A stretch of DNA of 64,000 nucleotides, taken from Tardiphaga robiniae (GTDB taxonomy: Bacteria > Pseudomonadota > Alphaproteobacteria > Rhizobiales > Xanthobacteraceae). Shown here piece after piece: positions 13,317-30,473 of the stretch (position 1 is the first letter of the stretch; each line of letters opens with the position of its first letter). The stretch lies in assembly GCF_013359755.1 (NCBI RefSeq), contig NZ_JABMCJ010000093.1, forward strand, positions 310,001 through 374,000, in the 5' to 3' direction. Made by a program: the position numbers and the translations under genes. The notes beneath the pieces are model-generated. The model saw only the letters and a list, made by a program, of their open reading frames with translations, ran no database searches and was not told where the DNA came from.

Positions 13317-13406
13317 GGAAAGGTGGCCGAGTGGTTTAAGGCAGCGGTCTTGAAAACCGCCGTGCCTGCAAGGGTACCGTGGGTTCGAATCCCACCCTTT
13401 CCGCCA
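13317..13406 (+). tRNA. tRNA-Ser (anticodon TGA)
   Basis: The acceptor stem GGAAAGG/CCTTTCC, long variable arm, GTGGG-TTCGAAT-CCCAC T-arm and anticodon loop CTTGAAA define a serine tRNA reading UCA. CCA is encoded at 13404-13406. Its last 14 bases (13393-13406) are repeated at 30432-30445 and form the left attachment site of the island; the gene remains intact. Confidence 0.97.
13393..13406. repeat. attL core (14-bp direct repeat, copy 1)
   Basis: CACCCTTTCCGCCA at the 3' end of tRNA-Ser including the encoded CCA. It is identical to 30432-30445. The flanks diverge on both sides (TCC/AAT here, GGA/TTT at the right copy). Confidence 0.85.
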
Positions 13407-13605
13407 AATCAGCAACTATCAATCTGATTTTAAAGGGATATTTTAGGATCACTGTTTGCAGCCCACAAATGAACCAACAACCTCTCAGGGGTGCGCGCGT
13501 TCACCCACTTGCCCTGCCCCCTTTATTCTTTCAGACTTCCTTTCAGGTTTGGAGCTATACGCAGGAAGCGCCTCGTATGCTCTGTTTCGAACAATCACTG
13601 CATTC

Positions 13606-14454
13606 ATGACCGTAGATTTACAGTTTGCGCCGGTGTTCCCTAGGCACGCGATCGAACGATGCGCTGCCACTGTAGGCTTTGTCCCGGCGCTGCCCGATAA
13701 GGCCTTCGATCGGCTGATCGCAGCCGTTACTCCAATTCTTCAGAATGCCGGCCTCATACCCCAAGCTACCGTTTCGATCGGATTTATGGTTGGTCCGGAC
13801 GGGAAAATGGTACCTATGGATGGGGGCGCCCCCGGCGGCGGCCCTCGCGTTTTCTCTTTACCAGATCAGACAAGCGCGCTGACAATCACCCCTGATGGTT
13901 TGGTTTGGGCCATCAGCACATACGTACGGTGGCAGCCATTCGTTGGCGGTGTCGAAAAGAACGTCCTCCCCGTGCTCAAAGAGTTTCTGAGCGACGTGTC
14001 TATTGCGGCAGTTAAACTTGAGTACTGGGACCGATTCCTGTGGTCTGGCACGTGGGAAAATTTTGACGTCGGTAAGCTGTTGAAGAAGGGCTCTGGGTTC
14101 ATTGCTCAAGAGGCTGCGACCCGTCCGAAGCAATGGCACTCCCATTCAGGCTGGTTCGACAATGAAGCAGGTCTTCGCCGTCTGACAAACGTTAACGTCG
14201 ATCTTGCCGAAGTGGCAGTGGATCCCAGCTTGCCGCCTAGACCTTCTGTGGGAATCTATTCGTCACTTACCGATCAGACTAATGTTCCAGAATACGGAAT
14301 GATCGATATTTCAGCACTTGGTGAAAGCTTCGTGGTTGAGCGTCTGGAACATCAGCACCTTGCGTTGAAGGATATTCTTGGCCATATCATCACTGATGAA
14401 ATGGCGACTCGCATCGGATTGAACCCACGGAAGCCCCAAAATGCCGGCGCTTGA
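13606..14454 (+). CDS. TIGR04255-family protein
   Basis: The 282-aa product begins MTVDLQFAPVFPRHAIERCA. A central region (RVFSLPDQTSALTITPDGLVW, then STYVRWQPFVGGVEKNVLPVL and AAVKLEYWDRFLW) matches the layout I know for the sporadically distributed TIGR04255 proteins, whose biochemical role is undescribed and which often occur in mobile regions. The frame is open 150 bases upstream; the ATG at 13606 is preferred because the upstream stretch is not protein-like. It is the first gene after attL and overlaps the next gene by 14 bases. Base composition is lower in GC than the flanking housekeeping genes, consistent with transfer. Confidence 0.7.
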   Translation: MTVDLQFAPVFPRHAIERCAATVGFVPALPDKAFDRLIAAVTPILQNAGLIPQATVSIGFMVGPDGKMVPMDGGAPGGGPRVFSLPDQTSALTITPDGLVWAISTYVRWQPFVGGVEKNVLPVLKEFLSDVSIAAVKLEYWDRFLWSGTWENFDVGKLLKKGSGFIAQEAATRPKQWHSHSGWFDNEAGLRRLTNVNVDLAEVAVDPSLPPRPSVGIYSSLTDQTNVPEYGMIDISALGESFVVERLEHQHLALKDILGHIITDEMATRIGLNPRKPQNAGA

Positions 14455-14974
14455 TCTCGATACGACATACCAATCGAAGCCAATTGACCGAGATCGTGAC
14501 AAACCCTCGATCACACGGACGGGAGCAGACATCCGCCTGCCAAGCTTGGCGAAGGCCAGGACGTTTGTGCGCCTCGTGGGCTCGGCTCAGGAAGCCGATC
14601 AGTTTGTGTTGCTCGCTCCCAGAGATCCTTGGCTAATTGAAACGATAAGGTTGATCGACGATCATCGAAACCTTGCAAAGGGCTGGGATGGCGAGTGTGC
14701 AGAACCTCCAGAAGCTGGAGCGCTGGATACTGCCGAGATGCTCTCGGTTTTTCTTAACTCGAATGGACCAGGGAGTCGGCCGACATTCTCAGTCGACTCT
14801 TTAGGCCGTCCCACCTTCGCTGCGCGGACGAACAATTTTTATATTCATCTGACTGTCGATAAAAGTGAGCGGATCACTTGGTTCGCGGAGGTGGATGGCG
14901 TCGAACACTTCCACGACGACGTTGAATTTAAGGGGCGCAAACTGCCCGACGAGTTATCAGCCATTTTATCGTAG
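14441..14974 (+). CDS. Uncharacterised protein with a GWDG motif, second gene of the TIGR04255 cassette
   Basis: The protein is 177 aa. A helical segment FVLLAPRDPWLIETIRLIDD leads into NLAKGWDGECAEPPEAGALD, resembling the nWDGyga-x-P motif seen in small uncharacterised proteins of mobile regions. The C-terminal half looks beta-rich (GRPTFAARTNNFYIHLTVDK, RITWFAEVDGVEHFHDDVEF). I do not recognise a named family. Overlap with the preceding gene by 14 bases and a gap of only 6 bases to the next suggest one transcript and fixed stoichiometry. Confidence 0.7.
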   Translation: MPALDLDTTYQSKPIDRDRDKPSITRTGADIRLPSLAKARTFVRLVGSAQEADQFVLLAPRDPWLIETIRLIDDHRNLAKGWDGECAEPPEAGALDTAEMLSVFLNSNGPGSRPTFSVDSLGRPTFAARTNNFYIHLTVDKSERITWFAEVDGVEHFHDDVEFKGRKLPDELSAILS

Positions 14975-14980
14975 TGGTAC

Positions 14981-15580
14981 ATGAGCCGCGAAAAATGCAG
15001 AGCGGCTATTAAAAGCACGCCTGAAGAGGAAATTGCTCGAAAGCTTCACCGTGCAACGGAAGACGTGTGCGGTTGCGAGCAATTTGAGATGGAAGACACG
15101 TCACCGGGACGAGTTTCGGACGGTGAATTACTAAATTTGGTCGTAAGTGATCCAAATAGTCTGCTCCCCGACGGCTCGCTAAATCCAGCGATGGTTGTGC
15201 AAATCGATCTCGGCGGCCTCAGCTGTTTGCGCGGTGCCGCAGAAGACGAAGAATTTCGGCTCACCATAGATCAGTTGAAGACGCGCTCGGCGGCGGCCGG
15301 AAAGCAGAGGTTTTTGCACGGCGTATGTATTTTTCCTGCTTCGACTGTTCGCTACGACAACGATTCGAGGCTCTTGGGAGTTTACGACACCGCGCTTCCC
15401 GACAAGCCTCATCATGCGGACATGATCGCTCCCGATTTGCATCCAATCACCACGTTGTCGAAGACTCAAAAAGAAAAAGAAAATCGCAGACGATATAAAC
15501 GCATCATCGAGTTAATCGGAGCAACGCTCGTGCCGGCGCGGCAATTCCGCGGCGGCCAGTTTGCTACTTACGGACGATGA
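14981..15580 (+). CDS. Uncharacterised protein, third gene of the TIGR04255 cassette
   Basis: The 199-aa protein has a small cysteine cluster VCGCEQFE near residue 30, a segment PAMVVQIDLGGLSCLRGAAE, and a basic C-terminus (KTQKEKENRRRYKRIIELIG). The cysteine pair could bind a metal, but no standard zinc-binding layout is complete. No family is recognised. It follows the second gene by 6 bases and is closed by a strong terminator 8 bases after the stop, defining a three-gene operon from 13606 to 15580. Confidence 0.7.
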   Translation: MSREKCRAAIKSTPEEEIARKLHRATEDVCGCEQFEMEDTSPGRVSDGELLNLVVSDPNSLLPDGSLNPAMVVQIDLGGLSCLRGAAEDEEFRLTIDQLKTRSAAAGKQRFLHGVCIFPASTVRYDNDSRLLGVYDTALPDKPHHADMIAPDLHPITTLSKTQKEKENRRRYKRIIELIGATLVPARQFRGGQFATYGR

Positions 15581-15588
15581 ACAAGGGC

Positions 15589-15617
15589 GCCCGCCGGCGA
15601 ACCGGCGGGCTTTCCTT
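15589..15617 (+). terminator. Rho-independent terminator after the TIGR04255 cassette
   Basis: GCCCGCCGG pairs with CCGGCGGGC around a CGAA tetraloop and is followed by TTTCCTT. It lies between convergent genes ending at 15580 and 15619. Confidence 0.85.
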
Positions 15618-15618
15618 G

Positions 15619-16380
15619 CTAGGCCGCTCGCTTAACCTCAATACCCGTCAGGTGCGAAAGCATCAGGCCGACCATCTGCTCCTCCTTGGTGTTTCCGTCC
15701 TCGATCTCGCCAAGCCAGCAGAAGTTGATGATCGCTGAAGCAACGGCACGAAAGCCCGCGAGCGTCGTCGGCTTCAACTCCATCATCTCCTCGAAGACGG
15801 CTGCCTCCTCGTCCCAAACGGCGCGCAGCGCTCGATCGGCTGCGTCGTAGCCACTTTCCTGTCGAGACTTCGCATGCGCCTCGCGGTGGGTGTCAAGTGC
15901 GGCAATGAGTTCGTCGGCTCGCTTCCGCCGCTGCTCATCGCCGAGCGATACGAAAAGATCCGCGGGCGCGCCGGCGGGAAGGCTTCGGTTGCTTCTCCAG
16001 TTCGATAATCCGAATTCGTCCCACTGCTCCGATGTGCCAATGAAATTCCATTGATGGAATTCGGTGCGACCACGAAGCTTGTCGATGTCGTCCTCCACGC
16101 ACCATTCTTCCCAACGTCCGTCGGCTTGGCGCGTGTACGAGCCGACGTCTCCGTCGTCGTAGCGCTTCAGCAAGACGCGCGGGCGTTCTGGCCGTACCCA
16201 GGCATCATCGCATTTACCGAGTTCGATCGAGCGCTGCCTGCATAGGCCTCGAAGCCTTGTGAGCTCATCCGCTAGCGTGATCAGCCTGGCCTCATATCCT
16301 TCGGCCGCGCGCGCTGGTGACGGCAAAAGCTGAACGGCGACTGGCGTTGCCGCCAGCGGTAGCGTGACTAGCTGGTTCAT
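15619..16380 (-). CDS. Hypothetical secreted-type protein, 253 aa
   Basis: The preferred start gives MNQLVTLPLAATPVAVQLLP and a plausible signal peptide ending near SPARAAEGYEA. The rest is charged and helical with several Trp/Asp-rich stretches (FHQWNFIGTSEQWDEFGLSN) and a C-terminal helix ending in HLTGIEVKRAA. The upstream in-frame extension contains RRTLMNQ, so a start a few codons earlier giving an RR-type leader is possible. I recall proteins of this layout as recurrent hypotheticals in Bradyrhizobium mobile regions, without a function. It is the only minus-strand gene in the left cargo half. Confidence 0.65.
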   Translation of the reverse strand: MNQLVTLPLAATPVAVQLLPSPARAAEGYEARLITLADELTRLRGLCRQRSIELGKCDDAWVRPERPRVLLKRYDDGDVGSYTRQADGRWEEWCVEDDIDKLRGRTEFHQWNFIGTSEQWDEFGLSNWRSNRSLPAGAPADLFVSLGDEQRRKRADELIAALDTHREAHAKSRQESGYDAADRALRAVWDEEAAVFEEMMELKPTTLAGFRAVASAIINFCWLGEIEDGNTKEEQMVGLMLSHLTGIEVKRAA

Positions 16381-17086
16381 GAGGGTCCTCCGTGTCAGGG
16401 CTGAGCCAATCGCTCGAGGAACGAAAGTCGGTGCCCTGCCCTCTGGTTCGCTGTCCACAGGGACGGTCTGGGCCGCGCGTGGGCGGCTATCTGGAATCAG
16501 GGGCGCTCGGCATGCTGTTCGGTCGCCGGCAGCGCTGGCGGACTCCGCACGGGGCGGAAACATGGGTATGGCTAGGGTCATTGTGGTCGCTCACTGAAAT
16601 GGGCCTCTCACAGCCGCGCTCGGAGACAGTCCGAGCAGCCGGGGGGTGAGAGCCTGTCAGTGAGACAGGTGCGCCGGTTTTAAGCCCCGAAGGACTCTGG
16701 ACAGAACGGCACGCCCCGGCCATAATTCGGCCGTTCGGAGCCGCGCCGCCAAGCGCGTCCGTTGGAGCCCTCATCGGGCGCCATTATTCAACCGCCGCCA
16801 CGTCGCTTGCAGGCGACAAGGCAATTCCTTGCAGGGAATGGTGCGGTCGAAGTCACTGATCCGGGCTCTCACACCCGCCTTCATGCTCATCTGAATTCGT
16901 TAACAAATCAATCCCTCTCGGGGGCGCCTTGGCGCGTCTGGCCCATCGGATCGGGAGTCCGAAGAAGCAGCCCGTACGTGCGCGCCTGTGGGTAGTAGCG
17001 GCGGACGGCTAAAGTATCGTTGCCTCCCGCCCAAGTTGCGGGTTCATTGTGCGCCGGCATCAATAACATCAATCGTCGGGGCGGAA
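16381..17086 (+). other. 706-bp gene-free region with five hairpins upstream of the OLD nuclease
   Basis: No convincing coding frame was found. Five perfect hairpins occur within 222 bp: 16618-16636 (GCTCGGA stem, GACAG loop), 16653-16669 (CCTGTC, loop AGTGA), 16717-16733 (CGGCC, loop ATAATTC), 16802-16817 (GTCGC, loop TTGCAG) and 16824-16839 (ATTCC, loop TTGCAG). The last two have different stems but the same six-base loop. A structured leader or small RNA is possible; the promoter of the plus-strand OLD gene must also lie here. Confidence 0.45.
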
Positions 17087-19036: not shown

Positions 19037-19057
19037 TTGATCGTGCAATCATAGCCG

Positions 19058-19129
19058 ATAGCGGGCGCAACCACCGCGATTCCCGCTGGCCTGCCATCCA
19101 TGCGATCATACACCCTGGTCACGAATCAA
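19058..19129 (+). repeat. Leader repeat copy A, upstream of a 65-aa gene
   Basis: This segment opens with ATAGCGGGCGCAACC and closes with GCGATCATACACCCTGGTCACGAATCAA-type sequence (shared blocks TGCGATCAT, CACCCTG and TCACGAATCAA). It is a diverged copy of 20331-20404; both lie about 20 bases ahead of small genes. Confidence 0.75.
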
Positions 19130-19147
19130 ATCGGAAGGGAAACTCTG

Positions 19148-19345
19148 ATGTCACACCTAGTAGATAATCGGCTGGTAGCAGCAACATTAGCCGCTCCAGT
19201 AATTGCGAAACTAGAGCTCGGCGCCGCACTCGAGAATGAAGCGGTCAGAATTTATAATGAAATACTGAAACGGTTGGATGAACAATCTGCGAAGGCAGCA
19301 GCCGATGGCATTGATAGCTACCTTTCAGGATCGATCATGAGGTAG
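19148..19345 (+). CDS. Small hypothetical protein, 65 aa
   Basis: A GGAAGGG ribosome-binding site precedes the ATG. The product is mostly helical (LAAPVIAKLELGAALENEAV, then RIYNEILKRLDEQSAKAAAD). No motif is recognised. It follows the OLD nuclease by 111 bp, with leader repeat copy A between, so it may be expressed separately from that gene. A partner role for the nuclease is possible but unsupported beyond proximity. Confidence 0.6.
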   Translation: MSHLVDNRLVAATLAAPVIAKLELGAALENEAVRIYNEILKRLDEQSAKAAADGIDSYLSGSIMR

Positions 19346-19573
19346 GCCGTGCCAGCGAGGCACTCCGTCACGGGCCGTTCTGGGTCACCAACTGTTTCTG
19401 TGTCCGGCGCTGCCGCTGAGGCACCACCGGCGCGACGTCTGCCAGACCGTTCGGGCCGTCTCCCGCGGGCCGTCGTCTCGGCGTTCTTGTTTGTTCCAAT
19501 TATGTAATACCCCGTAACTTCTATTAATCAGCGCAAAACTGCATCGCTGGACCGCAGTTCAGGACTTTTGTTC

Positions 19574-20245: not shown

Positions 20246-20330
20246 TGCTGCGCTAAGGCCGCGCCGCCATGACGCAATCCGGCTCTATCGAAGACCCGGT
20301 CCGACTGATCCACATTCGCGTAGTCTGTGA

Positions 20331-20404
20331 ATAGCGGGCGCAACCGGTCCGCGGCTCCCGCCAGCCGCCTACCCGTGCGATCATGCACCCTGATCACGAA
20401 TCAA
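20331..20404 (+). repeat. Leader repeat copy B, upstream of a 68-aa gene
   Basis: A 74-base diverged copy of 19058-19129. Identical blocks include ATAGCGGGCGCAACC, GTGCGATCAT/ATGCGATCAT, and TCACGAATCAA. It ends 20 bases before the start codon of the 68-aa gene, the same arrangement as copy A (18 bases). Confidence 0.75.
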
Positions 20405-20424
20405 GCTGCTTCAACGGAGCGAAT

Positions 20425-20631
20425 ATGAGCGACGCGAACGCGATGGTGAAAAGCCTGGAGATACTTGATAGATCCGCCAAAGAGCTCTCAGGCCTCGGCT
20501 TCAACAATGTGACCGTCAGCGAGATGTTTTTTGCCTACGGCATCCGCATCGGGGTGCTCGTCGAGGGCGCAGCCGTGTTCGGCGCCGCCCGCGCCGTGAT
20601 CGACAGCATGGAGAAGCAAAGCCGTGGTTGA
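20425..20631 (+). CDS. Small hypothetical protein, 68 aa, coupled to the cyclase-like gene
   Basis: The ATG at 20425 follows a GGAGCG ribosome-binding site. The product has an N-terminal amphipathic helix (MVKSLEILDRSAKELSGLGF) and a hydrophobic C-terminal half (IRIGVLVEGAAVFGAARAVI) that is too weak to call a membrane span. Its last 8 bases overlap the next gene's GTG start, suggesting translational coupling. No family is recognised. Confidence 0.65.
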   Translation: MSDANAMVKSLEILDRSAKELSGLGFNNVTVSEMFFAYGIRIGVLVEGAAVFGAARAVIDSMEKQSRG

Positions 20632-21394
20632 CGACGCTAATTCTGGCGCGATCTACACTGAACGCTATGTGGCGTTCATCGATATCCTAGGGTTCAGTGA
20701 CGTCGTTCGGCAGTCGACGTTTTTTCCATGGCGCGTAGCCAGTCTGATCTCGATCCTCGAGCAGATGGCGGATCCTCAGCAATACCTTCTTGATGGGCTA
20801 CTGCTCGAAGCGGACAGCTTCAAAGCCCAATCATTCTCCGACTGCATCGTAATGTCAGAAAACGCCAGCCCAGGTGGTTTGCTTCACTTGTTAGGCGCAT
20901 TGACGGTCACAAGCGTCAAGCTCTTGGCGAAAGGCATATTCACTCGTGGCGGAATCGCGAAGGGGCTCTTGCACCACACCGATAAAGTGGTTTTTGGCCC
21001 CGCAATGATCGAGGCCTACAGGCTAGAATCCACAACGGCAAAGTACCCGCGTATCCTTGTCGATAAGGCTACGCATGTTGACTACAAATCTCCGACGTAC
21101 ACGCACGCTGGTGCCAACTATTCAGAACTTCCTGCATTCCGCTTCGACAACGACGGCCCACCTTTTCTGGATATTCTAGCGCCGCTACGACTTCCGACAG
21201 CCGATGGTTTTGAAGAGGACATTCCGCTAATTCGGGAAGAGATACAGCGCTCACTTGACGAGGCTATTTACGAACCAAAGCACTTCGAAAAAGTGAGATG
21301 GCTCGCTATTTACTGGAACGAGCTTGCGCTTTCCATCGGCGCGCGGACGGTCGATTTTCCACAGCTCGATCATTTGAATCCGAAAAAGACGTAG
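20624..21394 (+). CDS. Class III nucleotide cyclase-like protein
   Basis: This 256-aa protein carries the outline of a class III cyclase domain. YVAFIDILGFSDVV (residues 15-28, metal Asp20) matches the FxDixGFt motif; FSDCIVMSE (Asp73) sits where the second metal aspartate belongs; FTRGGIAKG followed by VVFGPAMIEAYRLE and YPRILVD (107-147) matches the RxGi-x-G and NxAaRLe region, although the usual Asn is replaced. Activity and nucleotide choice cannot be read from sequence. Known Pycsar systems pair a cyclase of this fold with a membrane or NADase effector; no cNMP-binding effector is seen next to it. The start is GTG, overlapping the 68-aa gene by 8 bases. Confidence 0.65.
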   Translation: MVDDANSGAIYTERYVAFIDILGFSDVVRQSTFFPWRVASLISILEQMADPQQYLLDGLLLEADSFKAQSFSDCIVMSENASPGGLLHLLGALTVTSVKLLAKGIFTRGGIAKGLLHHTDKVVFGPAMIEAYRLESTTAKYPRILVDKATHVDYKSPTYTHAGANYSELPAFRFDNDGPPFLDILAPLRLPTADGFEEDIPLIREEIQRSLDEAIYEPKHFEKVRWLAIYWNELALSIGARTVDFPQLDHLNPKKT

Positions 21395-21434
21395 TGTGCT
21401 TCTTCGCTAGGGCAGCACCACCACCACGACGCAT

Positions 21435-22106
21435 TTAAGCCGACGCCTTGCCGCCGACCCGGTCCGCCCACCTGTGAATCACCCGAGAGCTGACCGAGCC
21501 CGCTGTCACGGTGGTAAGCTGCGCGAAGCCGCCAACCGCACAGAACTCGCCGTCGATGCCTTTATTGGCGATCAGGTGAGCACGCTGCAGCTGCAGAATT
21601 CGAAGCCCATGGACTGCAGGATTGATCGCATCGGCGTCGCCATCTAACGGCAACGACGCCACGATCTTCTCGTGGAGCCCGAGCTCATTAGGCAGACACG
21701 TGACGCCTGCAAGCGTAACGACGCGCCATGCGCACCCGTATCGATCATGGCTCGCGACCATGTAGGAGCACGGCCCAGTCGATTCCGAAATGCCGGCGAC
21801 GAGGACCTCGAAGTCAGCGCTGGCCCGGCAGTCCTCGAACACCGGGGCATAATTGTGCGCGCCGGCCTGAAGCAGCTCGACGATGACGGATCTCAGTTCG
21901 TCGAAGGACGCCGCACCGTTGCCGATGAGCTCGGCAAAAATCGGCCTCATGCCGGCGGGACCGCGCATCGCGACCGCGCAGTCGAGATGTGGCATCGGCA
22001 CCGCCTTCGGCCCGATCATCATAATCTCGCCGTCCGGGTGGTACGCCAGCGCATCCGTCAAGAGATGCACGGAGTTCGACTGGAGTATCACATTCATTGC
22101 GGACAT
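21435..22106 (-). CDS. Phage-module protein, possible Ntn-hydrolase-like
   Basis: The 223-aa protein begins MSAMNVILQSNSVHLLTDALAYHPDG, a pattern I associate with proteasome-like or Ntn-fold proteins found beside phage tail genes in rhizobia. PHLDCAVAMRGPAG follows. It may be structural or tail-associated; the assignment is weak. It is the last gene of the minus-strand phage module and is overlapped in another frame by the degenerate end of the tail gene upstream. Genes on the other side point toward it. Confidence 0.5.
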   Translation of the reverse strand: MSAMNVILQSNSVHLLTDALAYHPDGEIMMIGPKAVPMPHLDCAVAMRGPAGMRPIFAELIGNGAASFDELRSVIVELLQAGAHNYAPVFEDCRASADFEVLVAGISESTGPCSYMVASHDRYGCAWRVVTLAGVTCLPNELGLHEKIVASLPLDGDADAINPAVHGLRILQLQRAHLIANKGIDGEFCAVGGFAQLTTVTAGSVSSRVIHRWADRVGGKASA

Positions 22107-22581
22107 GCGCGGTACCTTTCATTGCATTGGTAAGAAGAGAGCCTCCGAGCCCAATTGCGGCGGTACCGAGCATCCCGGGGATGCCGGCACCGAACAGCGC
22201 AGGACCAGCCCAAAGAGCGAAGGCGGAGACCGCAACGAGCGCGACCAACCCCAGAACCTGCTTGGTGCCGTTCTGGCCGCCGCCCAGCGGATACGAAACG
22301 AAGCGGACGTTGTCGTTCGCCGCTATCCGCGTGCTCGTCCAGAACCTCCGCAGAAGCGGCACGCCGTTGATCTCGAGAATGGTCGGCAGGCCCTTCTTGA
22401 ACTGCCATCCATACTTCGGATCCCGGGTTGCCCAGCCCGTCCGCCGGAGAAAATCCGTGACCGTCTCGCGACGCCGCGGCACATCGCGCGCAATTTCCTG
22501 TCCCGGCATCACAAGATGCAAAACGGGAGTGCGCTCGGCGCTCCGGCGGCGTTCTCGACGTGTGCCCTGAGTCTGTGTCAT
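21814..22581 (-). pseudogene. Truncated phage tail-tip (J-like) N-terminal fragment
   Basis: The first ~160 codons look like the N-terminus of a phage tail-tip/host-specificity protein: ILEINGVPLLRRFW, FVSYPLGGGQNGTK, then two hydrophobic segments (VLGLVALVAVSAFALWAG and IPGMLGTAAIGLGGSLLTNA). After SLLTNAMKG the frame runs on for about 97 residues of Arg-rich sequence that overlaps the real gene at 21435-22106 out of frame, which is not protein-like. The large central and C-terminal domains of J are absent. A deletion joining the tail gene to the next gene explains this; a genuinely short protein cannot be excluded. Confidence 0.55.
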
Positions 22582-22737: not shown

Positions 22738-23694
22738 TCACGATTGTTCCAGGATCGTCAGCCGGCGGAGCCGGTCTGCAGATCCGCGTTCCTGCGGTGT
22801 CATCGCCTCGAGCTCGAGTCGCCGGCGACGATATGCAATCCGATCGGAGTCGCTAATCTGTGCCGTGGCGCTCGTCGACGACGATCCGCTGAGTCCGACC
22901 GCGTCTCTTAGCGTGCCGATGCGATCGACCATGCCGGCCGCGCGAGCGGCGTCTGCCCTAAGTGTACGCCCTTTGCCAAAGTTGCTGCGCACGGTGGCTG
23001 CGCTGACGCGGCGCCCGCTTGCGACCGCGGAGATAAACCGGTCTGCCACTTTATCGACCCCATCTTGCATATGGGCTCGCGCAACAGCGCTGAGCGGCTC
23101 GAAGGAATTGGCTTCCACCTTGAATGGGCTGGCCCTGCTGACTATGAATGTGGGCTGGATGCCGGCGACGCCGAGTGCGCGGGAGACATCGGTGTGCAGG
23201 CACAGCACTCCAATGCTTCCAACTTCGCCGGATGTGGTCATTGTAATCTGAGGTGCTTGAGACGCGAGCCAGTATCCTGCGCTTGCCGCCAGGCCATCGA
23301 CAAATGCCGCCATCGGTTTGACCCTGGCCGCCGCTGCAATATCGGCACCCAGTTCGTCGCAACCAGTCGCAGCACCACCGGGAGAGTCGACATACAACAA
23401 GATTTTGGAGACAGATCGATCGGACAGCGCTTCATACAGTTTTCCGCGAATTGCGGCGTAGTTGGAGAAGCCAAAGTAATCCGACATCATCCCGCCATTT
23501 CGCATCAGCGGGCCTGTAATCCCGACGACGGCGATCCCAGCTGGAGCGCCGTTGGAATTGCGTGCCGGTGCTGCCATGCGCTCGCCCCGGGCCATCAGCG
23601 CCACCATGCCGCTGAGCCGTGTGGGCTCGATGGCCCACGCCTGCGACTCCGCGCGGAGCATCGCCCAAACGTCACCGTGATCGCGGCCGCTCAT
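22738..23694 (-). CDS. S49-family (SppA/lambda C-like) phage prohead protease
   Basis: The 318-aa protein has the ClpP-crotonase fold signs of S49 serine proteases: ILLYVDSPGGAATG (oxyanion region), FVDGLAASAGYWLASQA with the catalytic serine, GEVGSIGVLC, and PFKVEANSFEPLS supplying the candidate lysine. Length and context match single-domain phage capsid maturation proteases, which cut scaffold and capsid proteins in HK97-type assembly. Its ATG overlaps the capsid stop by ATGA (23691-23694), so in this strand the capsid gene is translated first and the protease second, the reverse of the usual phage order. Confidence 0.85.
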   Translation of the reverse strand: MSGRDHGDVWAMLRAESQAWAIEPTRLSGMVALMARGERMAAPARNSNGAPAGIAVVGITGPLMRNGGMMSDYFGFSNYAAIRGKLYEALSDRSVSKILLYVDSPGGAATGCDELGADIAAAARVKPMAAFVDGLAASAGYWLASQAPQITMTTSGEVGSIGVLCLHTDVSRALGVAGIQPTFIVSRASPFKVEANSFEPLSAVARAHMQDGVDKVADRFISAVASGRRVSAATVRSNFGKGRTLRADAARAAGMVDRIGTLRDAVGLSGSSSTSATAQISDSDRIAYRRRRLELEAMTPQERGSADRLRRLTILEQS

Positions 23695-24719
23695 GTGCGG
23701 GCACCGAGCGCAATGAACGGCGATTGGGTGACCGTTGAATTTTCGGGAGTGATCGTCTCAGCCCATGCCGGCGCGCCGTCGACGCGGTAGCGAAACTTGA
23801 ACGCCGACTCGTCGGTGAGGAACCGCACGTGGATCGAGCTCAGAAGGTTCGGTTCGCGCTCGGCAAGCAAGTATTGGGAAAAGTCGGCGAGCAAAATGTC
23901 GCCCGTGCTGCCGAGCACGGAGGTGTGTTCGCTCAGTTCGACGGGCATCTGGTGCAGAAGCCGCTCACCGTTGGGGCCGGTCTCGATCAGTGTCGGGCCG
24001 TCTTGTTCCAACGCCAGCACCTGGCCGAAGACGTCGTTACTCATGAGCCACACGGCTCGCTGATGCGAAGGACCCCAAAGCCGACTGACCATACCGCTCA
24101 GGTTTGTCGTGCTGACCGAGGCCGCGGCCTGGCCGACGTCTTTCTCGACGGTGATGAGCGAAGGCGACTTTAGCACGCCGAGCGGCAGTCCGGCGCCGGT
24201 GCCGTTAATGACCTCGCGTTCAATTTTGAAGGCGGCGGCCAGCGAGAAAAGCCGCTCGATCGTCGCTGCCAAGACCGGCGCGTCCTGCAGCAATTCGTCG
24301 GTCACATAAATCAGAGAAAGAAGTTTTCGAAGGGTGAGCTTGACCTGTTCGATTTTCAGCCCTGTTTCAGGTGCCGGCGCCGCTTCATCGGTCCAATATG
24401 TTTGAACGCCGCCGAACCGGGCAATGCCGCCGTCGGCGATTGCAGGGATCGTGATATTCTTGCCCTTGGTCGACGGGAGGCGATCGCACCGCGCCAGGAT
24501 GGATCCCGCGGCAAAAACCCGGGCCCATAGCCGCTCGATAAACTCCTCCGGAACGAGAAAGCCGCCCTGGTTTCCGAATCCTTCATTCTGTCCGAGCGCG
24601 ACGGCTTCCATGACGAGACGCGCATCGCGCAGATCGCCGCCATCAGAATCCTGACGCGCGACCGCGAGCAGGAATGCGGAAAACTCATCAAACGTCTCGG
24701 TAAGGATTTGCTTGTTCAC
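23691..24719 (-). CDS. HK97-fold major capsid protein
   Basis: The 342-aa product (GTG start, VNKQILTETF) contains EGFGNQGGFLVPEEFIERLW, GKNITIPAIAD, and EAAPAPETGLKIEQVKLTLR with LLSLIYVTDELLQDAPVLAA, the usual N-arm, spine and E-loop order of HK97 capsid subunits. A later segment, INGTGAGLPLGVLKSPSLIT, is also typical. There is no long N-terminal delta scaffold domain, so the helical protein encoded just upstream may act as scaffold. The start overlaps that gene's stop by GTGA (24716-24719). Confidence 0.9.
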   Translation of the reverse strand: MNKQILTETFDEFSAFLLAVARQDSDGGDLRDARLVMEAVALGQNEGFGNQGGFLVPEEFIERLWARVFAAGSILARCDRLPSTKGKNITIPAIADGGIARFGGVQTYWTDEAAPAPETGLKIEQVKLTLRKLLSLIYVTDELLQDAPVLAATIERLFSLAAAFKIEREVINGTGAGLPLGVLKSPSLITVEKDVGQAAASVSTTNLSGMVSRLWGPSHQRAVWLMSNDVFGQVLALEQDGPTLIETGPNGERLLHQMPVELSEHTSVLGSTGDILLADFSQYLLAEREPNLLSSIHVRFLTDESAFKFRYRVDGAPAWAETITPENSTVTQSPFIALGART

Positions 24720-25312
24720 GCGGTGACTCCAAAGTTGCGCACGCGGCGAGCCCAAACAGCGGCGATGCTGTCCCATCGGCTGAGATCCATCTGGCTCAGA
24801 TCGCGCGATATGTCCGGTAGCAACTGCGACGTCGGCTCCGGCGCCTCAGCGGCAAACTCCGCCCGAATGTTTCGCTCCGCCTCCAGTGCGAGGCTAAGCC
24901 CGTCAACGGCGGCAACGATTTTCTTCGTCGCGACCATATGCCGATCGCGGTAGGTCATCGCGATCTGCACGGATAGCGCGGTGCGTGCCACCAGGAAGGC
25001 TTCGTGCGCAGCAACGTACCTGGGCTGAAGCGCGGCGAAATCGAACTCCAGAGCTTCGATGTCGCTCGCTGCCTTTATCGGGCTGCGTTGTGACGCCGCT
25101 ATAAGACCGCTCAAACTGGCAGCCAGATCCTTTGATCGCTCGGGGATGTGGCTGAGTCCCGCAAGGCTGCGTGCCAGACGGCGCCGTTCGAGATCGCTGC
25201 GCAGTTCACGCATCTGCACGCTGATCGCGCGCCATGCTGACTCCGCGGCGGTATACTCGGCGGCCACGTCGGGCGCCGGCGGATCGGGTTTCATAGCAAG
25301 AGCGGACGTCAT
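24716..25312 (-). CDS. Helical protein upstream of capsid, possible scaffold
   Basis: This 198-aa protein is predicted almost entirely helical with heptad-like stretches (WRAISVQMRELRSDLERRRL, LEFDFAALQPRYVAAHEAFL). Position directly before the capsid gene and GTGA coupling fit a scaffolding role, but no scaffold family is recognised. The ATG chosen gives MTSALAMKPDPPAPDVAAEY; 14 codons of open frame precede it. Confidence 0.55.
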   Translation of the reverse strand: MTSALAMKPDPPAPDVAAEYTAAESAWRAISVQMRELRSDLERRRLARSLAGLSHIPERSKDLAASLSGLIAASQRSPIKAASDIEALEFDFAALQPRYVAAHEAFLVARTALSVQIAMTYRDRHMVATKKIVAAVDGLSLALEAERNIRAEFAAEAPEPTSQLLPDISRDLSQMDLSRWDSIAAVWARRVRNFGVTA

Positions 25313-25418
25313 GCGGACCTCGTTCGATCCCAGATCGGCGTCGCGACGGCGCACCTACAGGGTCAAAACGAGAGTTGAGCGATTTGCTGGGTCACTTACA
25401 GCGCGGCGGTGACCCAAG

Positions 25419-25778
25419 CTAAAATAATCTGCGCATGCGGGCTGCGCTTAGCAGAGGACCGCAACGCAGGATTTCGAACCCCGCTAGCCGCTTCGGGTCG
25501 TCGATGGCTGGTGTCGATCGATGCCGAAAGCCTAACGCGGCCAACCGATTCAGATCCTCCACGATGGCGTCCGCTGCTTTGTGCGCGCTGCTGAGGTCGG
25601 AGTACCAATTCTTTCTATAGGTTCGCAACAGATAACAGCGCTCGCGCACCATGTCCGAGTGTGATCGCTTACGGCGGAGACGGTCCGCTACGCGTTCTCG
25701 GTCCTCATCTGAGACGTATGCAAGCACGAGTTCGAGGAACTGGGCGAACATCTCTGGGCTCATCGCGGCTCGCTCCAT
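25419..25778 (-). CDS. Hypothetical phage-module protein, 119 aa
   Basis: MERAAMSPEMFAQFLELVLA followed by a basic helical region (RVADRLRRKRSHSDMVRERC) and an ILRCGPLLSAARMRRLF tail. No motif is recognised. It starts 4 bases after the stop of the upstream gene (25783), within the same-strand run. The frame is open further upstream but would overlap that gene fully. Confidence 0.6.
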   Translation of the reverse strand: MERAAMSPEMFAQFLELVLAYVSDEDRERVADRLRRKRSHSDMVRERCYLLRTYRKNWYSDLSSAHKAADAIVEDLNRLAALGFRHRSTPAIDDPKRLAGFEILRCGPLLSAARMRRLF

Positions 25779-25782
25779 GAGT

Positions 25783-26184
25783 TCATTTCCCTGGAAGCGG
25801 CGTTTCGCGCCGGACAGGCTCTTTGGAGCGATCGGCGCCGTAGCTCGAGTAATCAAGCAGCGAGGCGTAACGCACCGGATCACGCCAGGTCCGAGATCCA
25901 ACGCCCGCGACGCATGCGCGGACGAAGCGCATATCGATGTCCGGCCTGATTTCTCGCTTGTCAGCAGCAATCCCTTGCTTAGCCTCCAACATAGCCGCCG
26001 CGAGAAGTCGAGATTCCGGCGGCCACCTCGGATTGCTCGCTACGCTCAGCAAGTCCTTGGGATCGTCGGTCATCGCAAAAACGTCGTCGATCGCGCGTCG
26101 GACGACAACGAGACGTTCGGGGCTCTGGTGGTCGTGAAGTGCCACGCCGCGGTGCTCACCGATCGTTGCTATCGCGTCGCTCAT
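25783..26184 (-). CDS. Hypothetical phage-module protein, 133 aa
   Basis: The product reads MSDAIATIGEHRGVALHDHQ and continues with mixed helical sequence, including FAMTDDPKDLLSVASNPRWP and MRFVRACVAGVGSRTWRDP. No family is recognised. Its start overlaps the stop of the gene before it by ATGA (26181-26184). Confidence 0.6.
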   Translation of the reverse strand: MSDAIATIGEHRGVALHDHQSPERLVVVRRAIDDVFAMTDDPKDLLSVASNPRWPPESRLLAAAMLEAKQGIAADKREIRPDIDMRFVRACVAGVGSRTWRDPVRYASLLDYSSYGADRSKEPVRRETPLPGK

Positions 26185-26462
26185 GATTTTCCTCCTTTGA
26201 GAATTCGTAGGGCGCGGCGCGCGACCGGATCGGTCTCATCCGCGCCTGATTCAGCAGTCGGCCTTTCGGGGAGCGGTCCGAGCTTTAGGAGCGCTCTGGC
26301 TGCTGAGACTCGGGCCGCTGCTGGCGCGCTCGGATCTCCGGCCACCGCGCGCAACACCGCCATGGGATCGACACTCGAGATGTCGACGCCGGCAAGAGCC
26401 GACGCGCTTGTTTCCTCTCGTGTTGGTCTCCCGGGACCGCGTCGCTTAACTCGTTTGGCCAT
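26181..26462 (-). CDS. Small basic hypothetical protein, 93 aa
   Basis: The N-terminus KRVKRRGPGRPTREE is AT-hook-like, suggesting DNA contact. A helical repeat-like segment follows (VDPMAVLRAVAGDPSAPAAA, then RVSAARALLKLG). A small terminase subunit or packaging accessory would suit the position, but no such family is recognised. ATGA coupling links it to the downstream gene. Confidence 0.55.
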   Translation of the reverse strand: MAKRVKRRGPGRPTREETSASALAGVDISSVDPMAVLRAVAGDPSAPAAARVSAARALLKLGPLPERPTAESGADETDPVARRALRILKGGKS

Positions 26463-26611
26463 TTGGTGTTTTCACTTAATTAGAATTTCTAGAGATTTTT
26501 TCCGCGCGCGCAGATGGTGCAAATGCGACCCCAAGCGGTAACTGCCCCTTCCCGACTTCGGGAACTTAGGCCCCCCGCCCCTTTGTCCCGCCGCGATCAT
26601 CGCGGCTGATC

Positions 26612-27130
26612 CTACTCGATGCGTTTAGCCATCGCCGCGCGGCGTGCCGGTAGGGTTGCGATGACGTCGCGGATGGAGTTCAGCCTACCCTGCGCATTGG
26701 CGATCATCTCGAGCACCTCCGCCGTGACCGGCATGAACTTGCGGGTATCAATGCAATCCCGCGTTGCCCACTCGATGGCGGCGAACGATGGCGCCTTGGC
26801 TATGGCACGGTCCACCATGATCGATGCGTAAGCACCGGCGGCTTTGCTATTGTGAAAATTCAACCTCATCACCGCGAGGTGGTCGCCAATCTCGACCTCG
26901 GTGGCTGGCCGAGCGATGACCGCAAAGCGGTCCCGCAGATCCGCTAGGGTCGGAAGGATTCCATCAACGTCCTGCATCAGCCGACGTAACGTATCCGGAT
27001 CAGCATTGTCGTACGCGTTTGCAATGACATCGCGTCTATAGAGATCGAGCAGCCTTTCACCGGTGTTCTCGAACTCCTCGGATAGAACGCGGAGTTCGCG
27101 TTGCGATTTGTGCACCTGGGGTACGGTCAT
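26612..27130 (-). CDS. Hypothetical phage-module protein, 172 aa
   Basis: A helical protein (RELRVLSEEFENTGERLLDL, then DPDTLRRLMQDVDGILPTLA and HLAVMRLNFHNSKAAGAYAS). No catalytic motif is recognised. Its ATG overlaps the stop of the HTH protein upstream by ATGA (27127-27130), so it probably belongs to the early/replication block rather than the structural block; 149 bp separate it from the next gene. Confidence 0.6.
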   Translation of the reverse strand: MTVPQVHKSQRELRVLSEEFENTGERLLDLYRRDVIANAYDNADPDTLRRLMQDVDGILPTLADLRDRFAVIARPATEVEIGDHLAVMRLNFHNSKAAGAYASIMVDRAIAKAPSFAAIEWATRDCIDTRKFMPVTAEVLEMIANAQGRLNSIRDVIATLPARRAAMAKRIE

Positions 27131-27954
27131 GTTGGTCTCCGGTTAAAGCCAGCAATGGATGGGTCATTCATTCCGATGGGCGACTGGAAAGAGCGCGGCT
27201 CTTCAAGCTCATCGGCCCATGCGCGGCTTCGCAACCATCGGGCTGGGTATGGAATGTACTTGCGGTCCGTAGGCGGACGACGGGAGAAGTGTTCCACCAG
27301 CCGCGCCACGCCGGCCATGATCTCAGCTTCAGTCGCCTGCTTCTTTTTCAGAACTTGACCCAGAGCAAGTTCAGCGTCTCCGGGTGCCTTCTTGCGTGGG
27401 TAGGCTGCGTAGAACCGTTTGAAGAAACTATCTGACGCGACATCGACGCCGCATGTGGGTGGCATCGGAAGAAATAGATATCCTTCTCTGTTCTCTTCTT
27501 TGTTCAATACTTCAGTGTTTGTGTGGATGGCCGTAGGTGGTTCGGAAGGCTGTTCGTAGGTGGTTGAGGTGAACGGCCGTACCGGGTTGATCTCTTTCAA
27601 CCGTGCACTGCTGTCGCTGGTTGACCCTGTACGGCGGTGGGCGGTTAACCCTGTCTCGCCAGCGATTGTTGGATGATCTGTCGGCAGCGATAATTCGTAG
27701 CTATTCGAATGCCGACCTTTCGTGCTCACTCGTCGGATGTATCCCGCCTGCTCGCCTGCTTTGATTTGCTTCGGTATGGCGGTGATCTGCTGGCCTGTCC
27801 CATCGGCCAGCGTCTGATAGGACGGATTGCATTGTCCGGTCTTGAAATTCTTGTGCAGCGAGATCCGTTGCAAGAGAGTTTTCGTTGCCGGCGTGAGGCG
27901 TCGGTCAGCCAATACGGAAGCTTGCCACATGTCACGTTCTCGCAGGGTCTTCAT
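27127..27954 (-). CDS. Helix-turn-helix replication-type protein
   Basis: The 275-aa product has an N-terminal winged-helix-like region (LTPATKTLLQRISLHKNFKT, NPSYQTLADGTGQQITAIPK, IKAGEQAGYIRRVSTKG), a Ser/Thr/Pro-rich linker, and a C-terminal domain with FFKRFYAAYPRKKAPGDAEL and KYIPYPARWLRSRAWAD. This YPRKkapg...YPArWLr pattern is common at the C-terminus of phage replisome-organiser and DnaD-like proteins. It probably starts island DNA replication. An alternative start at 27930 lies just after the preceding gene's stop (TGACATG). No strong ribosome-binding site separates the two choices. Confidence 0.7.
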   Translation of the reverse strand: MKTLRERDMWQASVLADRRLTPATKTLLQRISLHKNFKTGQCNPSYQTLADGTGQQITAIPKQIKAGEQAGYIRRVSTKGRHSNSYELSLPTDHPTIAGETGLTAHRRTGSTSDSSARLKEINPVRPFTSTTYEQPSEPPTAIHTNTEVLNKEENREGYLFLPMPPTCGVDVASDSFFKRFYAAYPRKKAPGDAELALGQVLKKKQATEAEIMAGVARLVEHFSRRPPTDRKYIPYPARWLRSRAWADELEEPRSFQSPIGMNDPSIAGFNRRPT

Positions 27955-28102
27955 GGGGGGAGAGCTTTCGCACGGGACGGTTCTGGACGAGCGCGACCGC
28001 TTCAGCATGCTGGCGCGATCCGAACGGGCCGGGAGCATCGTCGTGCCAGCCGATGAACCATGCGCCATCGTCGTGCTGGACGATTTCGTTGATCGAAAGC
28101 AT
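27932..28102 (-). CDS. Small hypothetical protein, 56 aa
   Basis: The frame reads MLSINEIVQHDDGAWFIGWH, then DDAPGPFGSRQHAEAVALVQ and ends in DPART. The aromatic WFIGWHDDAPGPF segment recurs, as I recall, in small proteins near AlpA genes in rhizobial islands. Its ATG shares one base with the AlpA stop (TAATG at 28104-28100), a strong coupling signal. It overlaps the start of the HTH gene if that begins at 27954. Confidence 0.65.
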   Translation of the reverse strand: MLSINEIVQHDDGAWFIGWHDDAPGPFGSRQHAEAVALVQNRPVRKLSPHEDPART

Positions 28103-28341
28103 TAGATCGCCGACCGATCACGCTGAGCGATGCGATCGCGCTGCCACTGGGCGATCTCGGAGGCAAGCCACGCAACGGCCTTGCCGCGTTGGGTGAGTTT
28201 GATGGGTCGCGGGAACTGAGGCGGCGTTTCACCCATCAGATCGTAGATGGTGGACCGTCCGAGCCCTGTCGCTTCTTTGACGGCAGCTAGCCTGAGTAAG
28301 GTATCGACCTGATTGCCTGAACTCTGCACTTTGTTCTCCAT
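28102..28341 (-). CDS. AlpA-family transcriptional regulator / excisionase
   Basis: The 79-aa protein carries the MerR-like winged helix of AlpA: LLRLAAVKEATGLGRSTIYD, FPRPIKLTQRGKAVAWLASE and IAQWQRDRIAQR. AlpA regulators in P4-like elements and islands control the integrase and excision. It lies two genes downstream of the integrase on the same strand. Confidence 0.9.
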   Translation of the reverse strand: MENKVQSSGNQVDTLLRLAAVKEATGLGRSTIYDLMGETPPQFPRPIKLTQRGKAVAWLASEIAQWQRDRIAQRDRSAI

Positions 28342-28418
28342 GTTCCAACCGGATCATCCCGGGCTTGGTTGGAAGATGCAGAAACGCTCAGCGCGCGTCG
28401 TACCAAAAATAAATGAGA

Positions 28419-29018
28419 TTAGATTTGCACATCGCTGGCAAGGCCGAACCCGGCGGCTCGGCGCGCTTTACATCGCTTCCGCCAGATTGACGCCACGTTC
28501 AGTTCGCTCGTGCCTAAGCGGCACTCGCTAAGTGCCGCCGAAACTATGGAGCAGGCACACGGGCCCGTACTGGCGCGGTTTCTGGTGGGCCTTAGGCCTC
28601 GGGATACCATAAGCTCCACGGCAGCAAAGATGGCTTCATCTCGATGCAGATGCGAAACGGCGTGGCTGCCTTGTCTGAAGTTCGGCGGCTTCATGGCTGC
28701 CCGGACGACGTATGCCTGCAGGACCAACGGCAAGGAAAGGTTTCGACCTGTGCGATGCGCGGCAATTTCGCAAAGCGCTTCATGGGCGATCCGATCTCCG
28801 CTGCCTGCGAGTTCGATCAAGCGCTCGGGATGATCACCCGAGTAAAGAACGCGGGCCTCCATCGGCATCGACGCGTCATTGGCAAAATCTAGGCCAGCTT
28901 CGCACATCAGATTGAACCGGTAAGACCGGTTACTGGCCTCCTCGTCCGCCACCCAAGGGTGCTGCAGCAGGTACGCAAGGGCAGCATCGTAGGCCGATTC
29001 AGCTGACACTTCGCTCAC
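28419..29018 (-). CDS. Hypothetical protein coupled to the integrase, 199 aa
   Basis: A mixed helical protein (ESAYDAALAYLLQHPWVADE, then LPLVLQAYVVRAAMKPPNFR) with several Arg-rich patches in the last third (RKRCKARRAAG). No family is recognised. Its ATG overlaps the integrase stop by ATGA (29015-29018), so its amount is tied to that of integrase, which hints at a role in recombination control. It could also be an unrelated passenger. Confidence 0.65.
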   Translation of the reverse strand: MSEVSAESAYDAALAYLLQHPWVADEEASNRSYRFNLMCEAGLDFANDASMPMEARVLYSGDHPERLIELAGSGDRIAHEALCEIAAHRTGRNLSLPLVLQAYVVRAAMKPPNFRQGSHAVSHLHRDEAIFAAVELMVSRGLRPTRNRASTGPCACSIVSAALSECRLGTSELNVASIWRKRCKARRAAGFGLASDVQI

Positions 29019-30292
29019 GTGGATGCTGCCCGAATCGGTACGACCGAAGCGTTGCGCGGTCCCCCGGCGCAGTATTGCGCCCAGTCGTCCATCAGGCGCC
29101 GGCGCTTCTCCCTCATATTGCCGCGGCGATAGGCTGCTTCAACCTTGTCGGAAACTGTGTGGGCGAGCGCCATTTCGGAGACCTCGTTTGGGTATGAAGT
29201 CTGCTCGGCGCACCAGTCCTTAAACGTCGATCGGAAGCCGTGCACGGTCAGGTCGTTATCAAACCCCTCCATACCCTGCAGCAACTCTAACATTGCCATA
29301 TTTGATAGTGGGGTGCCCTCCTCTGCCCCAGGAAAGATGAACTCGCCGGTGCCGTCGGCCAACTCCACTATGTCGCAGGCGCGCTCGCAAAGCGGTACGA
29401 CATGATCGTACTTCCGGGCGCCCTTTTTCCCCTTCATTCGTGCTTTAGGAACTGTCCAAAGCTTTTCCTGAATGTTGAGCTCAGACCGCGTGCCTTCGAT
29501 CGTATCGCTGGTACGTGCCGCGGTAAGAATGGTGAACTCAAGCGCACGAGCACTGATGCTGTTTTTGGCGCGAAGGTCGACCATGAAGGCGGGAAGATCG
29601 GCGTACGGAAGAGCTTTATGATGCCGAACGGGGGCGACCGATGACTTGGCGGGCAGAAGCTGGTCGAGATGCCCTCGCCACCGAGCTGGATTTTCGCCAT
29701 CTCTCAGCTTTCGAGCTTTTGCCCAGTCCAGTATTTTCTCGATGCGGCCTCGCACCCGGCTTGCGGTCTCGGTTTTTCCGGCCCAAAACGTCGGTGCACC
29801 AAGTTCCTCGCTCTCGGTTTGCTCAAGAATCTTCAGCACCAGATTGGTGTCGATGGCATCAACGGCCAGCCGGCCGATTGTCGGATAAGCGTAGGTTTCC
29901 AAGGTGGAGCGCCATTGATCGCCGTGCTTCGCTGATTTCCAGCCTGTCTGATGAGCAGTTATGTACTTTTCGGCTGCCTGTTCGAATGTCATCAGCTTGG
30001 CATGAGCTGCGCTCGCCTGGAGTCTTTCCGCGCGTCGCTGCTCAAGCGGGTCGACACCGGTCAGAATAAGCTTGCGACCGGCACGGGCATTCTCGCGAGC
30101 CTCCGCAAGGGTTACCAGGTTGACTGGGCCCAGCCCCATCTCGCGGGCACGGCCTGCGATCATGTAGCGAAGGAGCCAGCTTTTGGTGCCGGCGTTGGTC
30201 ACCTGTAAATACAGGCCGCCGCCATCGGCGTATCGGCCGGGCTTCTTCTGCTTAGTGACTTCGATCGCCGTTAGGCCCTTCGAGGCTGCCAT
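29015..30292 (-). CDS. P4-type tyrosine recombinase (integrase)
   Basis: The 425-aa protein has the DUF4102-type N-terminal arm domain (GRYADGGGLYLQVTNAGTKS), a core-binding domain with EQAAEKYITAHQTGWKSAKH, and the catalytic domain. Active-site residues visible are Arg in FTILTAARTSDTIEG, His-x-x-Arg in HGFRSTFKDWC, His in ALAHTVSDKVEAAY and the nucleophile Tyr in EAAYRRG. The start MAASKGLTAIEV is preferred over a 5-codon longer one. P4 integrases usually target tRNA 3' ends, consistent with the att repeat at tRNA-Ser. The gene lies 139 bp inside attR, reading inward. Confidence 0.95.
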   Translation of the reverse strand: MAASKGLTAIEVTKQKKPGRYADGGGLYLQVTNAGTKSWLLRYMIAGRAREMGLGPVNLVTLAEARENARAGRKLILTGVDPLEQRRAERLQASAAHAKLMTFEQAAEKYITAHQTGWKSAKHGDQWRSTLETYAYPTIGRLAVDAIDTNLVLKILEQTESEELGAPTFWAGKTETASRVRGRIEKILDWAKARKLRDGENPARWRGHLDQLLPAKSSVAPVRHHKALPYADLPAFMVDLRAKNSISARALEFTILTAARTSDTIEGTRSELNIQEKLWTVPKARMKGKKGARKYDHVVPLCERACDIVELADGTGEFIFPGAEEGTPLSNMAMLELLQGMEGFDNDLTVHGFRSTFKDWCAEQTSYPNEVSEMALAHTVSDKVEAAYRRGNMREKRRRLMDDWAQYCAGGPRNASVVPIRAAST

Positions 30293-30431
30293 TGACCCAC
30301 AATCCAACCCACAAAATCGGTCCGGATTTGGCCGGACGTGGTTGGATTTGTCCAGACGATTATCGCCAGATTGTGCCCTTTTACGTATGTTTTTGGACAG
30401 GGGCGGAATACAACGGAACCAAAATTACGGA

Positions 30432-30445
30432 CACCCTTTCCGCCA
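30432..30445. repeat. attR core (14-bp direct repeat, copy 2)
   Basis: CACCCTTTCCGCCA, identical to the last 14 bases of tRNA-Ser at 13393-13406, and 139 bp beyond the integrase start. It marks the right end of the island. Confidence 0.8.
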
Positions 30446-30473
30446 TTTGCCGCATCATCCTCTGTCGGACGAC

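Follow-up and report, generated by a model that had tools for sequence, protein, structure and literature searches.

In the published excerpts drawn on here, known phage satellites either reshape the capsid of a helper phage, as do P4 and the Staphylococcus aureus pathogenicity islands (SaPIs), or encode a whole head and packaging set, as do the capsid-forming phage-inducible chromosomal islands (cf-PICIs). In the part of PMC10690885 at hand, cf-PICIs are described as encoding a capsid protein, a head protease, a portal, connectors, both terminase subunits and HNH. P4-like satellites are marked, in an excerpt of PMC8628076, by the Pfam families psu, delta, epsilon and alpha (PF07455, PF04606, PF10554 and PF03288). 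Here, we describe a 17-kb island in a 64,000-nucleotide stretch of the Tardiphaga robiniae genome (hereafter, the window; contig NZ_JABMCJ010000093.1, positions 310,001 to 374,000). The island, which fits neither the cf-PICI nor the P4 definition as these excerpts give them, encodes its own capsid protein. Judged from its sequence, it is quite probably a capsid-carrying phage satellite that would borrow the terminase, portal and tail of a helper.

The ends of the island are defined by a tRNA gene and a direct repeat. ARAGORN identifies tRNA-Ser(TGA), the integration target, at 13317-13406 (plus strand), and CACCCTTTCCGCCA occurs exactly at its 3' end (13393-13406, plus strand) and again at 30432-30445 (plus strand), with no further match in the window at up to two mismatches. 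Next to the far copy lies a P4-type tyrosine integrase of 430 amino acids (29015-30307, minus strand; start codon provisional), whose Phage_int_M, Arm-DNA-bind_3 and Phage_integrase domains all score above their Pfam cut-offs. The initial annotation had proposed just such an island, and the tRNA, both repeats and the integrase were found where it placed them. The 14-bp repeat is weak on its own (at least two matches with up to two mismatches in 11 of 100 shuffles), and it is an empty site in a close relative, G015, that settles the boundaries to the base. There, the left flank, which ends at 13406, directly abuts the right flank, which begins at 30446, and a 200-base query made of the joined flanks is identical at 197 of 200 positions, with a single repeat copy, as had been predicted. 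The features of a tRNA-targeting integrase element are thus all present: a second copy of the tRNA 3' end at the far side, an adjoining integrase and an empty site. Counting one repeat copy, the element measures 17,039 bp. The outcomes that would have spoken against the proposal were absent, since the empty site exists and the capsid gene is missing from the other 17 genomes of the genus examined (E<=1e-10). The lower GC content reported for the island also held: 0.578 against 0.624 and 0.623 in the flanks, with 0.550 in the cargo end and 0.604 in the phage-like core.

The same tRNA is an integration hotspot. In the five closest genomes, the tRNA-Ser(TGA) site is empty in one and occupied in four, the window's element included. 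In G003 (L061), 7.2 kb separates the flanks, the repeat copies are 5,017 bp apart and the DNA is unrelated to the island; in G007 (L062), copies 2,972 bp apart enclose another unrelated element. In G017 (L063-L065), 47.4 kb separates the flanks, one exact repeat copy was seen in the stretches examined, and the element is again unrelated.

Inward from the right end, the minus strand carries the integrase, an unassigned open reading frame (ORF), AlpA, a Rep-like gene, another unassigned ORF, a non-coding site discussed below, genes Q, P, O and N, the capsid gene, an S49 protease gene, and K and J; the left end is cargo, mostly on the plus strand. The HK97-type major capsid protein (MCP; 23691-24719, minus strand) matches Pfam Phage_capsid at 129.7 bits (cut-off 24.2) and TIGR01554 at 159.4 bits. 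The latter match covers profile positions 100-381 of 385, and the approximately 100 unmatched N-terminal positions are what we take to be the delta, or scaffold, region; in HK97-type capsid proteins, the delta region at the N-terminus serves as scaffold. The S49 head maturation protease (22738-23694, minus strand) matches Peptidase_S49 at 97.3 bits (cut-off 24.9) and phrog_53 at E 1.8e-68.

The machinery that would fill and join such a shell was looked for in several ways. No portal or TerL family was recognized in scans of the island ORFs, save for a weak match of J considered below, and a portal query from a related prophage of Bradyrhizobium sp. Ai1a-2 (G352) had no match in the element. 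In that phage, TerL has 581 and the portal 546 amino acids. The only island ORFs of at least 400 amino acids are an OLD-like protein (682) and the integrase (430), both assigned, and therefore no ORF of TerL or portal size is unaccounted for. Families of the small terminase subunit (TerS) gave no match for island ORFs Q, P, O, N or R, and Q occupies the terS position. No head-tail connectors were recognized among the island ORFs; connectors are small and diverse, and several ORFs are unnamed.

A link to a particular phage lineage came from comparing the island DNA with phage and satellite regions, which revealed a short non-coding match at the terS gene of three phages: the G352 prophage (TerS, phrog_309 at E 8e-9; TerL, phrog_9 at E 1.6e-118), a phage of Bradyrhizobium sp. 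Leo170 (L082) and an IMG/VR contig (L097). In all three, the site lies directly upstream of the terS start, and in L097 an in-frame stop codon precedes that start, so this stretch is not terS coding sequence. A hidden Markov model (HMM) built from the three phages alone, with trimming that followed an alignment including the window, found a stretch of an Afipia element described below (E 9.6e-28) and positions 26575-26493 of the window (E 1.2e-9; an intergenic feature at 26493-26575, minus strand), the next window match being at E 1.6. The best control score in 31 sequences of 64 kb was 9.5 bits, against 33.7 bits for the site. Across 140 other loci (1.66 Mb), strong matches were confined to the Leo170 phage, the Afipia element and the window's own locus. 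A 23-base core, written from five sequences and therefore matching those five by construction and informative for rarity only, occurs with up to one mismatch in 5 of 391 genomes of the family, exactly in three (G000, G178 and G352), and its reversed control in none. In IMG/VR, it occurs exactly in two stretches, both from phages with two capsid genes; the loci with one mismatch (L193, L194) have no helper-type neighbors.

In the window, the site is oriented as in the phages and precedes the capsid operon, at a distance of 31-51 bp from Q. Q itself (26181-26462, minus strand), the first gene past the site, is a small protein with a weak match to phrog_15261 (E 0.0039). We read the site as a probable packaging site, cos- or pac-like, that TerS would recognize. 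The chief alternative is that it is a late promoter of the helper that switches on the capsid operon, with packaging directed by another signal; its place before the first gene of a late-looking operon in the window, and directly before terS in the phages, would suit this role. The distribution of the site favors packaging, as it goes with the type of terS: none of five phage loci with G352-like TerL (45-62%) but no terS of this kind has it (G017 C13, L070, L074, L077 and L210, examined with the DNA upstream of terL). In phages with a distant TerS (29-31% to G352), a weak trace is found exactly upstream of terS in two of three loci (L181 and L182, from G001 and G014 of the window's genus; E 0.031 and 0.0098) and no match at terS in L208. 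We regard a late promoter as possible, if rather unlikely.

Relatives of the island were sought by comparing its capsid protein with 391 genomes of the family, of which 16 matched at E<=1e-25. Beside the window's own, six of these were covered by wide neighborhoods (G352, G178, G156, G069, G068 and G388); the nine others were covered as loci of about 4 kb, where further elements may be hidden. All six neighborhoods from genomes of the genus Bradyrhizobium (G352, G388, G888, G788, G804 and G841) were inspected. Single-sequence capsid scans of genome contigs and IMG/VR gave no relative, and a search of plasmids gave two distant matches only (35% and 28%).

The closest counterpart is in Afipia sp. 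OHSU_II-C1 (G178), in the same tRNA-Ser(TGA), where 14-bp repeats (CACCCCTTCCGCCA) lie 17,865 bp apart, one at the tRNA 3' end. The two elements share, in the same order, the integrase (42% identity), O (24%), N (33%), the capsid protein (46%), S49 (49% over 188 amino acids) and J (30%); their Rep proteins could not be aligned by BLASTP. Agreement at codon positions 1/2/3 between the two elements is 0.50/0.54/0.30 for N, 0.56/0.65/0.39 for the capsid gene, 0.53/0.58/0.31 for S49 and 0.49/0.58/0.28 for J. Because position 2 agrees best and position 3 least, these four genes appear to be under protein-level selection in both elements. No match to G352-type TerL or portal was found in the Afipia element. 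It does carry a gene for a tape measure protein (L069, 257-3088) of 944 amino acids, against 1,450 in the G352 phage, and the shorter protein could give shorter tails.

Two more elements extend the comparison. That of G788, in the same genus group as Bradyrhizobium sp. Ai1a-2, is 15,953 bp long with a 15-base repeat at tRNA-Ser(GCT); its integrase and AlpA are 52% and 70% identical to those of the window. It also encodes a Terminase_4 small terminase (42.6 bits, cut-off 24.7), a gene of the Q family (phrog_15261, E 0.00032), a capsid protein and a fiber-like protein. TerL and portal were not recognized in it, and its ORFs of at least 300 amino acids leave no space for either; it also shows no recognizable O, N or head protease. 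The G156 element (L072/L073, G156:C58) is 15,293 bp long and bounded by a 49-base repeat of tRNA-Thr(CGT), the longest repeat in 200 random control windows being 13. It encodes an integrase, a helix-turn-helix (HTH) gene, a capsid protein fused to an S78 prohead protease, antirepressors and a STAND/AAA ATPase. In the ten ORFs that were scanned, neither a portal nor TerL was recognized; the largest ORFs listed between its repeats are the capsid-S78 fusion (564 amino acids) and the integrase (484). Neither the G788 nor the G156 element matches the site model. In total, four elements of 15.3-18 kb, in three kinds of tRNA, have a capsid gene and no recognized packaging motor.

The capsid gene points to the same phage lineage as the site. 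The G352 (L079/L066) and L097 phages have two tandem HK97-type capsid genes, MCP1 and MCP2, after an S49 protease; between the two phages, MCP2 is conserved at 86.7% and MCP1 at 62%. L082 has lost the protease and the first half of MCP1 and retains an intact MCP2. A 42-row tree places the capsid proteins of the window and Afipia and the MCP1s of G352 and L097 in a single clade (100/99). Within it, the window protein groups with the MCP1s (99/95) and the two satellites are not mutual nearest relatives, although a tree that places the satellites together is not rejected (p-AU 0.105). This tree left out 11 distant or long-branched loci (L035, L036, L037, L081, L083-L088 and L090), kept L082, and kept every third remaining IMG/VR row. 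In a 98-row tree lacking Afipia and G352 MCP1, the long-branched protein of G156 C58 (L037) joined the window and L097 (92/71).

These comparisons bear on the view that the island is a decayed prophage, stripped of terminase, portal and most of its tail genes, with a cos site, a capsid gene and a protease gene left as debris. In favor of this view, the capsid, the protease and the pre-terS site all derive from phages, the Afipia element has its tape measure gene, and the island contains K (22120-22581, minus strand), an N-terminal fragment of a tail-tip (J-like) phage protein, which is 68% identical to the tail-tip N-terminus of G352 and 66% to that of G017 (phrog_31, E 3.5e-6). Against it, the core set recurs in the same order in another genus with its frames unbroken, at 24-49% protein identity, and agreement is best at codon position 2. 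The gene order is also reversed, protease to MCP1 in the phages that match the site and capsid to protease in the satellites. Further, two more tRNA-end elements carry a capsid gene and no recognized terminase or portal, and N has no relative in the phages collection, in IMG/VR or among 98 MCP loci, save in Afipia. We therefore consider decay improbable; a complete prophage was rejected, as its set of terminase, portal, connector and tail genes was not found.

A strict cf-PICI with an unrecognized portal and terminase is suggested by the capsid protein, head protease, integrase and satellite size, and is very unlikely, given that the definition in the excerpted PMC10690885 calls for a portal, connectors and both terminase subunits, that portal and TerL families were not found, and that no ORF of fitting size is left; this class was rejected on the portal and TerL. 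A strict P4-like satellite was likewise rejected: the island has a P4-type integrase and AlpA, and the psu, delta, epsilon and alpha families are absent from the Pfam matches of its scanned ORFs. An ordinary genomic island that captured phage genes without present role would account for the host-type cargo and the unnamed ORFs, and is equally remote, given that the capsid operon has stayed in order across genera, with constraint at the protein level, and is accompanied by a borrowed site.

Several observations nevertheless weigh against a capsid-carrying satellite. The frame of K loses its tail-tip homology and then runs into gene J; K is thus a gene fragment, and some decay or recombination, as its sequence indicates, has occurred. 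J weakly matches phrog_13702 (218 positions, labelled terminase large subunit; E 0.0044, and E 0.0033 for the Afipia J), a label that we read as probably mistaken because J has 223 amino acids and a predicted proteasome-like fold. The unnamed ORFs could include small head-tail connectors, and the site could be a late promoter instead of a packaging site. The N profile matches one of 397 order-level genomes, the window's own, and none in IMG/VR, so the closest kin number two elements. Matches to G352-type TerL at E<=1e-20 occur in 4 of 18 genomes of the genus, not including the window's own. The latter also has no second copy of the 23-base core, and its one Pfam portal (G000:C90, L196) lies among scattered phage-like genes.

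The portal cluster of the window's genome resembles a gene transfer agent, and so do portal and capsid-like genes that lie scattered in Afipia (L198, G178:C16). Since the window's genome lacks G352-type TerL and has its sole portal in such a cluster, no matching helper resides there. The phage-like region of G017 has a G352-type TerL (60-63%), a portal and the tail-tip N-terminus resembling K; its terS is different and the site is absent. In the excerpt of PMC11389934, none of 17 prophages in a strain with a cf-PICI detectably mobilised it, and by analogy the absence of a helper would not be unusual among satellites.

If the island is a satellite of this kind, it probably spreads with the machinery of the phage lineage that carries the pre-terS site. 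During growth of such a helper, the element would be excised by AlpA and the integrase and copied with the help of the Rep-like protein. The genes past the site (Q, P, O, N, capsid and protease) would be expressed late, a shell would be made from the element's capsid protein, and the portal, terminase and tail of the helper would finish the particle. The helper terminase would recognize the borrowed site and package the element of about 17 kb; on injection from the particle into another cell, the element would be inserted at tRNA-Ser by the integrase. More tentatively, and with somewhat less than even odds, the four elements could belong to a class of shell-only satellites that recurs in this family of Alphaproteobacteria: tRNA elements of 15-18 kb with their own capsid, usually a protease and perhaps a scaffold, a borrowed portal, terminase and tail, and a helper packaging site. 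The helpers of the window and Afipia elements would then be the two-capsid phages, and because MCP1 of the satellite type occurs in that lineage, capsid genes would have passed between helper and satellite. The phage MCP1 may even have been captured from a satellite, to set or contest the size of the shell.

The remaining genes add detail to this picture. ORF N (24716-25315, minus strand; about 199 amino acids) has no family match, and its long-helical model (mean pLDDT 75.5) gave no fold match at E<=0.001; N is a candidate separate scaffold. ORF O (25419-25778, minus strand; 119 amino acids) is matched in the same place in Afipia at E 4e-5 in a single comparison, and ORF P (25783-26184, minus strand; 133 amino acids) has no family match. 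Beyond the site, the scans gave no significant family match for a 172-amino-acid ORF (26612-27130, minus strand) and no match for one of 199 (28419-29018, minus strand). Between these two lie the replication-initiator-like gene (27127-28068, minus strand; phrog_270, E 1.6e-23, with HTH_36 slightly below its cut-off) and the gene for the AlpA-type regulator or excisionase (28105-28341, minus strand; Phage_AlpA 62.6 bits, cut-off 21).

The product of J (21435-22106, minus strand) is a predicted proteasome-like N-terminal nucleophile (Ntn) hydrolase, whose model matches 20S proteasome chains in fold (best E 3.2e-7). Confidence in that model is only moderate (pLDDT 68.7, and lower still for the other four). 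In the J family alignment, position 2 is Ser or Thr, and D18 and K34 do not vary. These residues are consistent, once the first Met is removed, with the triad of Thr1, Asp17 and Lys33 in proteasome beta subunits. J-type proteins with the predicted fold were also observed in L068 (18684-19322) and L178 (10001-10783). The kin of J include a phage gene directly after that for the tape measure protein; neither J nor N has a match in the phages collection. The cargo comprises an OLD/Gabija-like ATPase-TOPRIM protein of 682 amino acids, a candidate anti-phage gene (16988-19036, plus strand; AAA_15 above cut-off, PADLOC Old E 7.5e-21), a TIGR04255-like protein (13456-14454, plus strand; 27.9 bits, below the cut-off of 30), and a member of the uncharacterized phage family phrog_23933 (20624-21394, plus strand; E 3.8e-30).

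A literature search limited to open-licence PMC papers yielded no description that we recognized of such elements in this bacterial family. The analysis names a likely helper lineage, and the pre-terS site together with an MCP1-type capsid provides a sequence signature for finding pairs of helper and satellite. If the satellite reading is true, the island shell must accept a foreign portal, so that the matching of portal and capsid, and the choice of shell size by one MCP, become directly testable.

Compared with known systems, the island resembles P4-like satellites in its P4-type integrase, AlpA, tRNA target and anti-phage-type cargo, and differs in that the four P4 marker families were not found; P4 reshapes the capsid of its helper, whereas the island encodes its own capsid protein. 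A helper-type packaging site on a satellite would act as in the cos-type PICIs and SaPIs, but these redirect helper capsids and the island brings a capsid and a protease. MulchRoom and MiniFlayer, satellites of Streptomyces phages, also have their own capsid genes, and in the excerpt of PMC10690885 they encode terminases and a portal as well. With cf-PICIs, the island shares an HK97-type capsid protein, a head protease, an integrase, satellite size and, presumably, the need for a helper; unlike them, it has no portal or TerL that we could find, no recognized small terminase, and an apparent packaging or late site of helper type. If this reading is true, an element with only a capsid and a protease is an intermediate between the satellites that reshape helper capsids and the cf-PICIs.

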